Positions 30,812 through 35,238 of a stretch of DNA of 35,238 nucleotides are shown one piece after another. The notes below the pieces were generated by a model. It did no database searches and was not told where the DNA came from. It saw only the letters and a list, made by a program, of their open reading frames with translations. The stretch is from Nanobdellota archaeon (GTDB lineage: Archaea; Nanobdellota; Nanobdellia; Woesearchaeales; CG1-02-33-12): contig JAHJQG010000007.1 of assembly GCA_018819345.1 (NCBI GenBank), positions 1 through 35,238 of the forward strand. The letters are read 5' to 3'. A program made the position numbers and the translations under genes. How positions within the stretch are numbered: position 1 is the stretch's first letter; each line of letters opens with the position of its first letter.

Positions 30812-32509
30812 ATGAATAAAAAACAGATTTTGTCAAAAATAAAAAATAAATTAGAGGTAATATATCTATATAATAATACAGACCAGATTTTTCTAAAGCT
30901 AAATAATATTATAAATAAATATTACAATAAACCAATAATTAAGAGTAAGAGAAAAAAATATGGAAATAAATTATTTTTATCAGAGAAAGATTCTATTTTG
31001 ATTACATACGGAGATTCTATAAAGACCAGCAAAGAAAAACCATTAAAAACCCTATACAGGTTTCTTAGGAAATATATCAAAAATACAATTACCGGGGTTC
31101 ATATTTTGCCATTTTTCCCTAGCTCTGATGATGCTTTTTCAATAGTTGATTATAGAAATGTTAGTCCAGAATTAGGAAATTGGAAAGATATCCAGAAAAT
31201 TGCAAAGGATTACCATTTGATGGCTGATCTTGTGTTAAACCATGTTTCCAAGGAGAGCAAATGGTTCAAGGGATTTCTAAAAGGGGATAAGAAGTACATG
31301 AATTATTTCATTGCTTTTAACAAAAAAATTGATACAAATTTGGTTTTCAGGCCAAGGACAAACCCCTTATTAACAGGATTTAAGACAAAAAAGGGATTAA
31401 AATATGTGTGGACAACCTTTAGTGATAATCAGGTTGATTTAAATTTTAAAAATCCAGATGTTTTGCTTGAGATTATTGACTTATTATTATTTTATCTTTC
31501 AAATGGAGTTGAGATTATCAGATTAGACGCAATAGGTTTTCTGTGGAAAGAACTGGGAACCTCATGCTTTAATCTGAAGAATAGTCATGAGATTGTTAAA
31601 CTTCTTCGGCTTATATTAAGTTATGTAGCACCCTATGCTATCTTAATCACAGAAACAAATGCTCCCTATAAATATAACATATCCTATTTTGGCAGGGGTG
31701 ATGAATCACATATGGTATATCAGGTCACTCTTCCCTTGCTTGTATTAGATGCATTCATAAGAGAGGATACATCTCATTTGCAGGAATTCTATAAAAGAAT
31801 AGAACCATTAAAAGCTGGGAATCTGTTCTTTAATTTCCTGGCCTCACATGATGGTATTAATATGATTAGTGCAAAGGGATTGCTTACAAAAAAACAATCC
31901 AGTAATCTTATCAATGAAGTAAAAAAGCATAATGGGCTTATTTCATATAGATCTGTGCCAGATGGAACCAAAGCCCCATATGAGCTGAATATAAATTATT
32001 TTGATGCAATAAATAACCCTAATAGGAAAACTCCTATTGCCAAAGAGGTAAAAAGATTCATCTCATCACAATCACTCATCATAGCAAACAATGGTGTGCC
32101 TGGTGTTTACATACATAGCTTGATTGGCTCAAGAAATTATCTGGCAGGAGTAAAGAAAACTGGAATAAAGAGAATGATTAACAGAGAGAAGATTAATTTT
32201 ACAAGACTAGAGAAACAGTTAAGAGATAAGAAATCAATAAGACACAATGTTCTAAAGAACTATTTGAGGCTGCTTGATATAAGAACAAAGATTCCAGAGC
32301 TTAATCCCTTTTATAAACAAAAGGTTATCTATTCAGATAAGAGATTATTCATTGTGTCAAGGCTCAGAAAAAATAAAAAACTAGTTGTAATAATAAATGT
32401 AAGCAATGATATAATTTCACTTTCCAGATATAAAGGCAGAACAGACTTATTATCAAAAAGAAGATTCAATGGAAAGGTTCAACCAAATGGGGTTTACTTC
32501 TTAAAATAA
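30812..32509 (+). CDS. GH13_18 glycoside phosphorylase (sucrose phosphorylase family; glucosylglycerate phosphorylase suggested by context)
   Basis: GVHILPFFPSSDDAFSIVDYRNV, IIRLDAIGFLWKELGTSC, ITETNAPYKYNISYFGRGDESHMVYQVTLPLLVLDAF, NFLASHDGI. Confidence 0.87.
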   Translation: MNKKQILSKIKNKLEVIYLYNNTDQIFLKLNNIINKYYNKPIIKSKRKKYGNKLFLSEKDSILITYGDSIKTSKEKPLKTLYRFLRKYIKNTITGVHILPFFPSSDDAFSIVDYRNVSPELGNWKDIQKIAKDYHLMADLVLNHVSKESKWFKGFLKGDKKYMNYFIAFNKKIDTNLVFRPRTNPLLTGFKTKKGLKYVWTTFSDNQVDLNFKNPDVLLEIIDLLLFYLSNGVEIIRLDAIGFLWKELGTSCFNLKNSHEIVKLLRLILSYVAPYAILITETNAPYKYNISYFGRGDESHMVYQVTLPLLVLDAFIREDTSHLQEFYKRIEPLKAGNLFFNFLASHDGINMISAKGLLTKKQSSNLINEVKKHNGLISYRSVPDGTKAPYELNINYFDAINNPNRKTPIAKEVKRFISSQSLIIANNGVPGVYIHSLIGSRNYLAGVKKTGIKRMINREKINFTRLEKQLRDKKSIRHNVLKNYLRLLDIRTKIPELNPFYKQKVIYSDKRLFIVSRLRKNKKLVVIINVSNDIISLSRYKGRTDLLSKRRFNGKVQPNGVYFLK

Positions 32510-32523
32510 ACTCAAATAATAAC

Positions 32524-32536
32524 AAAGTTTATATAT
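32524..32536 (+). promoter_or_regulatory. BRE/TATA promoter AAAGTTTATATAT upstream of the ileS leader
   Basis: Resembles the window's AAAGATTTATATA motif; about 25 nt before ATG 32558. Confidence 0.55.
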
Positions 32537-32557
32537 TTATTATAACTCTTCTTTCTT

Positions 32558-32632
32558 ATGAAATCCAATTTATACTTATTGTCTTTTAATATTAATTGCA
32601 TTATTAGTTTTATTTCTATTATTATTATGTAA
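32558..32632 (+). CDS. candidate leader peptide, 24 aa, isoleucine-rich
   Basis: MKSNLYLLSFNINCIISFISIIIM; 7 of 24 residues are Ile, all ATT; leaderless position relative to the TATA box. Confidence 0.4.
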   Translation: MKSNLYLLSFNINCIISFISIIIM

Positions 32633-32680
32633 ATATGCTGGCGTTTTCTAAGCTGGCAAACCATCACTAATAGAAATAAA
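32609..32680 (+). repeat. 13-bp perfect inverted repeat enclosing a second 7-bp hairpin
   Basis: TTTATTTCTATTA (32609-32621) and TAATAGAAATAAA (32668-32680); inner TGCTGGC (32636-32642) pairs with GCTGGCA (32652-32658) with two G-U pairs. Confidence 0.55.
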
Positions 32681-32720
32681 TATAAACAAATAAAAAAACA
32701 AGAACAAATGAGGATAAAAA

Positions 32721-35238
32721 ATGGACAAAAAATATGATTTTAGGAAAATAGAAAAAGAGATCTTGCTGTTTTGGAAGAAAAACAAGAAGCTTATCTATGA
32801 TTCTCTCCAGGAAAATCCAAAAGATAAAAAGCCATTATTCTCATGGCTTGAGGGGCCGCCAACAGCAAATGCTCCTCCTGGACTGCATCATGTTGAGGCA
32901 AGGGTTTCAAAGGACTTGGTTTGCAGGTATAATTTTATGAAGGGTTTTGCTGTTCCAAGAAAAGGGGGATGGGACTGCCATGGCCTGCCTGTTGAAATCC
33001 AGGTCCAGAAAAAACTAAATCTAAAAACAAAAAAAGACATCTATAAATTTGGGGTTGAAAAGTTTATTGATATATGCAAGAAAGATGTTTTCTCATTTGT
33101 AAAGGAATGGTCTGATATGACTGAAAGAATGGGTTTCTGGGTTGATTTAGATAACCCTTATGTTACCATGGAAAAAAACTACATGGAGAGCGAGTGGTGG
33201 GCATTAAAGCAGTTGTTTGATAAAGGCCTTATCTACCGTGGCTATAAAGTTGTTCCTTACAGTGTTGGCTGTGAAACACCATTATCAAGCCACGAAGTAG
33301 CACTTGGCTATAAAGATATTATAGAGGATACAGTAACCATTAGGTTTGAGGCAAAAGAAGATATTTATAAAAAATTTCCAGAGCTTGAAAAAAACAAGAA
33401 ACTATATTATCTAGTCTGGACAACAACACCATGGACTCTTCCAAGCAATCTTGCAATTGCAGTTAAGAATGATATAAATTATGTGATTGTTGAAACAGAT
33501 TTTTCAGACAAAAAAAAACAAAAAGCCTATTATGTTGTTGCAAAAGACTTACTGGAAAGGTATTTTCCTGATAAAAATAACAGGAAAGTAATAAAAACAA
33601 TAAAAGGAAAAGAGCTTGAAAATCTTGAATATATTCCTTTGTTTGATTATTTTAAAGACAAGGTTAAGAATTCATTTAAATTTATTCTTGCTGACTTTGT
33701 AACAACAGAAGAAGGAACAGGCCTTGTTCACCAGGCACCAGCTTTTGGTGAGGATGACTTCAATATCTGCAGGGAAAAAGGAATTGATTTTGTTAATCCA
33801 GTTGACCTTGAGGGCAAGTTCACTAAAGAAGTTAATGATTATAAAGCAAGGTTTGTAAAGGACTGCGATGAAGATATAATAAAAAGGCTTGATAAAGAAG
33901 GAAAACTGTTTGTAACCTATAAGGTCAAGCATACATATCCTTTCTGCTGGAGAACAGGCTGCCCATTAATTTATTATGCAATGGATGCATGGTTTATCTC
34001 TGTTTCAAAGTTCAGGCATAAGCTAGTTAAAAATAACAATAAGATTAACTGGTATCCTGAAAGCTTTAAGGATGGAAGGTTTGGAAACTGGATTTCAGAG
34101 GCAAAGGACTGGGCTTTATCAAGAAACAAGTTCTGGGGAACTCCACTAAACATATGGGTCTGTGAAAATGAAAAATGCAGCTATATGGAATCAATAGGTA
34201 GTATTGCTGAACTTGAGGAAAAAACAGGCAAAAAAGTAAATGATCTTCATATTGGCTCTGTTGATCCATTGACATATAAATGCCCAAAGTGCAGCAAAAC
34301 AATGAAAAGAACTCCAGAGGTTATTGACTGCTGGTTTGATTCAGGAGCAGCAACATTTGCACAATTTCATTATCCTTTTGAGAACAAGGAACTATTTAAA
34401 AAAAGGTTTCCATATGATTTTATCTCAGAGTCAATTGACCAGACAAGGGGCTGGTTTTACACTCTGCATGTTTTATCAACTCTCTTGTTTGATGATTTAA
34501 GTTATAAAAATGTTCCAGTTACTGGATTGCTATGTGATGAATATGGGGAAAAAATGTCAAAATCAAAAGGGAATATATTATTGCCTAATGATGTTTTTGA
34601 CAAAAGAGGAGTGGATTCTGTAAGGCTGCTTATGTGCTCTTATCCTCTTGGGAATAATGTTAAGGTTGGTCTTTCTGTATTTGATGAGCTGATAATTCCC
34701 TTTTTCAACATACTCTGGAATTCATATTATTATGCTGCAGATTACATCAATAACTTCAGGCTTAATAATATAAAAAATATTAATATTAAAAGAGTAGAGG
34801 ATAGATGGATAATATCAAGAGTAAACTCAACATTAAAAGATTTTGAGAAAAGCATGGAAAAATATGATTATGCACATGCAACAGAATCCATAAGGAATTT
34901 TGTGGTGAATGACCTCTCAAGAACCTATATCAAAATTATTAGGGACAGAACACAAGAACAGGATAAGGAACTGGCATTTAGTTTCAAGTATGTCTTTGAC
35001 AGATTAATAAAGATAATGGCCCCATTCACGCCATTTATCTCAGAGTATATTTATCAGGAGTTTTTAAAAGGAAAATCCTGGAGTGTCCACTTTGAAGAGT
35101 GGCCAAAGCATGAGAAAACAGATAAAAAGCTTGAGCAGGAATTTTTATTTGCTTCTGACATAACACAGGCAATTCTTGCAGCAAGGGAAAAAGCACAGGT
35201 TGGAATAAGGTGGCCATTAGGTAAAGTTGTTTTACACA
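32721..35238 (+). CDS. ileS: isoleucyl-tRNA synthetase, 5' part; runs off the right edge (missing from the ORF track)
   Basis: MDKKYDFRKIEKEILLFWKKN..., FSWLEGPPTANAPPGLHHVEARV, GWDCHGLPVEIQVQKKL, GEKMSKSKGN. Confidence 0.95.
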   Translation, partial: MDKKYDFRKIEKEILLFWKKNKKLIYDSLQENPKDKKPLFSWLEGPPTANAPPGLHHVEARVSKDLVCRYNFMKGFAVPRKGGWDCHGLPVEIQVQKKLNLKTKKDIYKFGVEKFIDICKKDVFSFVKEWSDMTERMGFWVDLDNPYVTMEKNYMESEWWALKQLFDKGLIYRGYKVVPYSVGCETPLSSHEVALGYKDIIEDTVTIRFEAKEDIYKKFPELEKNKKLYYLVWTTTPWTLPSNLAIAVKNDINYVIVETDFSDKKKQKAYYVVAKDLLERYFPDKNNRKVIKTIKGKELENLEYIPLFDYFKDKVKNSFKFILADFVTTEEGTGLVHQAPAFGEDDFNICREKGIDFVNPVDLEGKFTKEVNDYKARFVKDCDEDIIKRLDKEGKLFVTYKVKHTYPFCWRTGCPLIYYAMDAWFISVSKFRHKLVKNNNKINWYPESFKDGRFGNWISEAKDWALSRNKFWGTPLNIWVCENEKCSYMESIGSIAELEEKTGKKVNDLHIGSVDPLTYKCPKCSKTMKRTPEVIDCWFDSGAATFAQFHYPFENKELFKKRFPYDFISESIDQTRGWFYTLHVLSTLLFDDLSYKNVPVTGLLCDEYGEKMSKSKGNILLPNDVFDKRGVDSVRLLMCSYPLGNNVKVGLSVFDELIIPFFNILWNSYYYAADYINNFRLNNIKNINIKRVEDRWIISRVNSTLKDFEKSMEKYDYAHATESIRNFVVNDLSRTYIKIIRDRTQEQDKELAFSFKYVFDRLIKIMAPFTPFISEYIYQEFLKGKSWSVHFEEWPKHEKTDKKLEQEFLFASDITQAILAAREKAQVGIRWPLGKVVLH

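Follow-up and report, generated by a model that had tools for sequence, protein, structure and literature searches.

An isoleucine-codon leader with a covarying RNA fold upstream of ileS in Woesearchaeales: a candidate archaeal leader-peptide regulator

INTRODUCTION

Leader-peptide attenuation is a textbook bacterial device. Whether an archaeon might use something similar is a question raised by contig JAHJQG010000007.1, the whole 35,238-nt stretch of which was analysed here and is called the window. In it a short open reading frame (ORF) rich in Ile codons, overlapped by an inverted repeat, precedes ileS, the gene for isoleucine--tRNA ligase (IleRS). The host is archaeal, as the window encodes archaeal proteasome and exosome subunits, SBDS and aCPSF1/FttA. 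A preliminary description of this DNA had suggested that the Ile-rich ORF, the 13-nt inverted repeat and an inner hairpin form an attenuator, and each of these elements was indeed found in the sequence. From the comparison of genomes given below, we consider it likely that the region acts in cis as a leader which monitors charged tRNA-Ile via ribosome stalling and sets the expression of ileS accordingly. The elements, all on the + strand, are as follows.

32528..32533, + strand: P1 (promoter of the leader), TATA box TTTATA; the leader ATG follows 30 nt downstream
32558..32632, + strand: leader mini-ORF, 24 codons plus TAA, seven Ile; homologous ORFs in genomes G001-G004, G007 and G008
32609..32621, + strand: region 1, 5' arm of the outer helix, TTTATTTCTATTA; exact complement of 32668-32680, with covariation
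32636..32658, + strand: inner hairpin, TGCTGGC-N9-GCTGGCA; compensatory changes at 7/7 pairs
32668..32680, + strand: region 4, 3' arm of the outer helix, TAATAGAAATAAA; pairs with region 1, ATAG invariant
32681..32686, + strand: P2, probable second TATA box (TATAAA) for ileS; 12-nt offset from (G)ATAG, and see G122 below
32710..32713, + strand: SD-like GAGG of ileS, outside both helices
32721..35238, + strand, running off the window: ileS, isoleucine--tRNA ligase (TIGR00392, E 4.4e-262, above cut-off)

The leader ORF translates to MKSNLYLLSFNINCIISFISIIIM, and every one of its seven Ile codons is ATT. Region 1 overlaps leader codons 18-22 (Phe-Ile-Ser-Ile-Ile) and is the exact reverse complement of region 4 over 13 nt. 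The inner hairpin begins 4 nt 3' of the leader stop codon; its arms are TGCTGGC (32636-32642) and GCTGGCA (32652-32658), which form seven pairs including two G-U pairs. Region 4 contains a BRE-like GAAA (32673-32676). The gene 5' of the leader (30812-32509) encodes a GH13-type enzyme, with sucrose phosphorylase as best match below the curated cut-off, and sits between glycosyltransferase-like genes and ileS.

RESULTS

Conservation of the leader ORF

The sequences upstream of ileS from 129 genomes of the order (Woesearchaeales) were scanned with a strict rule, which called for a mini-ORF with (Ser/Gly)-(Ile/Val/Met)-Ile-(Ile/Met) at its end, near the stop codon. Such mini-ORFs were present in 20 of the 129 upstream regions versus 0.29 ± 0.65 in shuffled sequences. 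A conserved ORF rich in cognate codons, with its Ile run, is thus established upstream of ileS by comparison. The leader ORFs have 14-35 codons, Ile making up ~35% on average, and end in three to six Ile or Ile-like codons. When read codon by codon, 26 of 27 leaders end TCT-(ATH/GTC/ATG)-ATH-AT(H/G)...stop; the codon after TCT is ATC, ATT, GTC or ATG and is followed by at least two further Ile (or Met) codons. Third positions in the run vary freely while the residue hardly varies, run length changes by whole codons, and TAA, TAG and TGA are all used as the stop. Six other genomes of the same family (G001-G004, G007, G008) carry the leader 5' of ileS, with different sequence farther upstream in several of them. 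Among these leaders the indels in the ORF are of whole codons, whereas elsewhere they are not. This conservation of frame suggests that the leader ORF is translated.

The same conservation could be read as that of an arrest peptide, in which the nascent ..SIII(x) stalls the ribosome for a signal other than tRNA-Ile and acts on the same fold. The TCT Ser codon and the position of the run are nearly invariant, even in G032 and G052 where a clear region 4 is absent. However, the residues before the Ser vary widely, the number of Ile codons per leader ranges from 4 to 12, the downstream gene is invariably that of the Ile synthetase and, where region 4 exists, TCT is accounted for by pairing with its AGA. 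We regard an arrest peptide as unlikely.

The RNA fold

The 87-nt element has a fold z score of -3.27, with 2 of 200 shuffles folding as well. The preliminary description had asked for a dinucleotide-shuffle check of the 13-bp repeat: the repeat is real, but 7 of 1000 shuffles reach a 13-nt inverted repeat and it is only moderately rare by composition alone. That the leader is not a chance occurrence therefore follows from comparison, that is from the 20 of 129 mini-ORFs set against shuffles and from the covarying fold described here, rather than from composition.

A covariance model was built from 15 of the 20 mini-ORF leaders. Both helices covary, scoring 0.268 versus 0.117 ± 0.014 in shuffles for an alignment of 22 sequences which, being fitted to the model, favours structure, and 0.187 versus 0.115 ± 0.014 for a sequence-only MAFFT alignment of 15 sequences; these shuffles retain the relatedness among the sequences. 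In the 22 sequences, 11 of 21 pairs have changed on both sides, giving 36 double-change cells versus 8.7 ± 2.6 in shuffles. Sliding the partner by 1-3 columns lowers the paired cells from 86% to 39-51%. The inner hairpin, with compensatory changes at every pair, has 93.4% of its cells paired in the 22 sequences, and one pair of the outer helix is found as CG (16), UA (4), GC (1) and a single mismatch. Within the family of the window the arms are nearly invariant, although G007 and G008 have U changed to C in one arm and A to G in the other. The ATAG of region 4 is invariant in all 22 sequences, and the invariance of ATAG/CTAT exceeds what pairing alone requires.

The outer helix (regions 1:4) and the hairpin (regions 2:3) thus form, by comparison, a conserved structure with one arm overlapping the regulatory codons. 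The two are nested and compatible and not mutually exclusive, and no alternative pairing partner for region 4 was found by eye. Neither a U-tract terminator nor sequestration of the SD was found: the sequence after the stem is A-rich and the SD lies free of it, as the preliminary description had cautioned on both counts. An SD similar to the GAGG of ileS is present in most genomes of the same family. The U-run of the hairpin loop was considered as a terminator and dropped because it is absent in G048, G123 and G124. The preliminary description had also staked its reading on conservation of the mini-ORF and stem in relatives; the ORF, Ile run, hairpin and outer stem all proved to be conserved, with covariation.

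Given the excess conservation of CTAT and ATAG, it may be asked whether control is exerted on the DNA, TTTCTATC and GATAGAAA being half-sites for a regulator by the two promoters and the RNA fold a by-product. That the P2 TATA box keeps a rigid distance of 12 nt from ATAG would suit such an arrangement. Against it, the half-sites are spaced 52 to 66 nt apart with no helical phase, the inner hairpin covaries at all seven pairs, and an operator needs no Ile codons, in-frame run or leaderless start. An operator at these sites is quite unlikely in our judgement.

The leader promoter and a probable second promoter

In the great majority of the leader set, the distance from the first base of the TATA-type hexamer of P1 to the leader ATG is 29-33 nt, most often 30 nt. 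This spacing, established by comparison, agrees with a transcript start at the ATG itself. The leader ORF is thus probably read from a leaderless mRNA, and the preliminary description had argued for a leaderless start from the window alone. In most genomes P2 is a TATAAA whose distance from (G)ATAG is fixed at 12 nt. With the P1 spacing as a guide, transcription from it would in most genomes begin between -13 and 0 of the ileS ATG; in G016, G140, G269, G271 and G272 the P2 box is well upstream of ileS. The leader of G122 (L177) has seemingly decayed (MDVMYKNKRK*). That G122 has lost the leader and kept the P2 box, while G048 and G128 have kept the leader and arm and have no P2 box, is the reason for reading P2 as a separable promoter. 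It is a probable second promoter of ileS whose BRE overlaps region 4, and the weaker AATAAATATAAAC element, named in the preliminary description as a possible downstream start, appears to be this promoter. With a second promoter before ileS, some ileS mRNA may bypass the leader. An antisense promoter in region 4 was also considered and dropped because the BRE-like GAAA is on the plus side.

Could P2 be the working promoter of ileS, with the P1 leader RNA serving for transcriptional interference or as a separate small RNA? The implied starts of P2 close to the ileS ATG, and its presence in G122 where there is no leader, would fit. The leader and helix arms of G048 and G128, which have no P2 TATA box, argue otherwise, since the only ileS mRNA evident there must carry the leader, and in G032 the leader stop is ~15 nt before the ileS ATG. 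The chance of this arrangement seems as slim as that of the DNA operator.

Distribution of the leader

Altogether 29 genomes carry the leader, spread over 13 families of the order; G007 is counted among them though its contig starts inside the leader ORF. A search of 353 whole genomes with the covariance model matched 22 genomes, in all of them directly upstream of ileS; the element is nearly palindromic, and the sole extra match was to one already matched, read on the reverse strand. Of the 22 genomes, seven were new and found blind, and all seven have an Ile leader and a TATA box like that of P1. An eighth blind find came later (G130), having an Ile leader and a score similar to that of a weak match in G099, which is away from ileS and was set aside as chance. 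A second BLAST match in the window's own genome (C58:8815) lies inside an unrelated ORF and was likewise put down to chance. When ~99 other ileS loci were searched with the model, no match was found except G016 itself. No match was found outside the order in a class-wide search of 378 genomes drawn evenly, in which the stricter filters of Infernal may miss diverged copies.

The valS and leuS genes of the same genomes lack a leader and start shortly after an ordinary TATA box, and no cognate leader was found for sampled synthetases with an HGTP anticodon domain (His/Pro-type) in these genomes. Among the synthetases checked the leader is, by comparison, restricted to ileS; the leader and stem of the preliminary description are hence conserved in many families and upstream of ileS only. 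An ordinary uORF or a small hydrophobic protein (e.g. a type I toxin) unlinked to ileS regulation would account for a short, hydrophobic, AT-rich peptide but hardly for one genuine copy per genome, always adjoining ileS, in 13 families with diverged N-termini, and is highly improbable.

The position and completeness of the element vary. Its distance to ileS is ~130-300 nt in G016, G140, G269, G271 and G272. G032, G052 and G014 have the leader and no clear region 4. At L263 (G268) region 4 appears to be interrupted by an insert of ~67 nt, at about -116 to -50 of ileS; ATAG stands on either side of the insert, as in a target-site duplication. At L256 and L261 (G271, G272; family f36) the stretch between the leader and ileS holds a repeated, hairpin-like sequence, GATGCTGCCTCCCC...GGCGACGCAT, that may be a small mobile element, and G047 (L091) has a sequence related to it.

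The leader and the type of IleRS

A tree of the N-terminal half of IleRS has three deeply divergent types, namely the one usual in the order, one near bacterial IleRS that includes the family of the window, and that of G125, and leaders precede each of the three. A wider contig search, whose sequences were used for the tree, gave only bacterial IleRS and no further leaders. IleRS of the window family is about 48-50% identical to that of Clostridia and 36-43% identical to that of most of its own order, and ileS of this family is likely to be a horizontal replacement. The same scan gave no leader in other archaea whose IleRS is of the bacterial-like type. G125 (L309) and G124 (L174) belong to one genus and have homologous leaders and different IleRS types. 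The occurrence of leaders before three types of IleRS suggests that the leader outlasts gene replacement, and it seems that the leader stayed while ileS was exchanged downstream. Transfer of the leader itself is a conceivable alternative.

A model for control of ileS

The comparisons support the attenuator interpretation of the preliminary description, and from them we infer the regulation itself. The leaderless mRNA from P1 would begin at the AUG of the Ile-rich leader ORF. When charged tRNA-Ile is plentiful, the ribosome would finish the leader and depart, allowing region 1 to pair with region 4 around the inner hairpin, and with the outer helix formed less of the P1 mRNA would yield IleRS. 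When charged tRNA-Ile is scarce, ribosomes would stall on the Ile run and cover region 1, leaving region 4 unpaired and giving more IleRS. Extra IleRS is of use during a shortage of charged tRNA-Ile, and on the simplest reading the helix is therefore the low-expression state. P2 probably supplies basal ileS mRNA without the leader. A point against the model is that ribosomes could also stall at Ile codons 5' of region 1, which would leave region 1 unblocked.

The output step could lie at the level of termination, RNA processing or ileS translation. FttA (aCPSF1) terminates on U-rich RNA, which it prefers at about 30-36 nt behind RNA polymerase, and competition between FttA and the trailing ribosome has been proposed (PMC11616081, PMC8716108); such competition makes an output at the level of transcription possible. 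As a candidate for the output, FttA binding at region 1, which is U-rich, was weighed and rejected: region 1 would be covered in both states, by the ribosome or by the helix, thus FttA binding alone gives no switch.

If the model is true, then uncultured archaea with small genomes sense amino-acid supply via coupled transcription and translation, a leaderless ORF can act as the sensor, and the leader is a natural element for testing archaeal transcription-translation coupling. The chances are about even that it stands for a class of archaeal leader peptides that sense amino acids on leaderless mRNAs, with a helix that a stalled ribosome keeps open, no terminator or SD sequestration, and the ability to outlive replacement by foreign types of IleRS.

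DISCUSSION

No archaeal leader-peptide attenuator for an amino-acid or aminoacyl-tRNA synthetase gene was found in the literature searched, in which subscription journals were scarcely covered; a general statement that uORFs regulate genes in archaea too appears in a tool paper (PMC10219788). Control of ileS by charged tRNA-Ile, as proposed here, is shared with the ileS T-box, which occurs in Firmicutes and, in a translational form, in Actinobacteria (PMC1262725). The T-box, however, binds the tRNA directly and without a leader ORF, and a search of Rfam, T-box included, gave no match at the gathering threshold and none of relevance with E up to 5. A further parallel is offered by the Actinobacterial cys operons, where conserved cognate-codon leader peptides likewise occur without an evident terminator (PMC1262725), although these concern another domain of life, another gene and another amino acid, and the Ile leader has a covarying fold.

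With the bacterial attenuators (the trp, ilv, leu, trpS and leuS leaders and the Actinobacterial set, PMC1262725) the Ile leader shares a short ORF with a run of cognate codons, an RNA arm overlapping the codons of the run and a cognate amino-acid gene downstream. In contrast to them it is archaeal, with a leaderless start from a TATA promoter; its helices are nested instead of mutually exclusive, no terminator hairpin with a U-tract is present, and the 3' arm abuts a probable second promoter. The Ile leader thus fails two defining features of the classical output half of a bacterial attenuator and resembles it in the sensor half.
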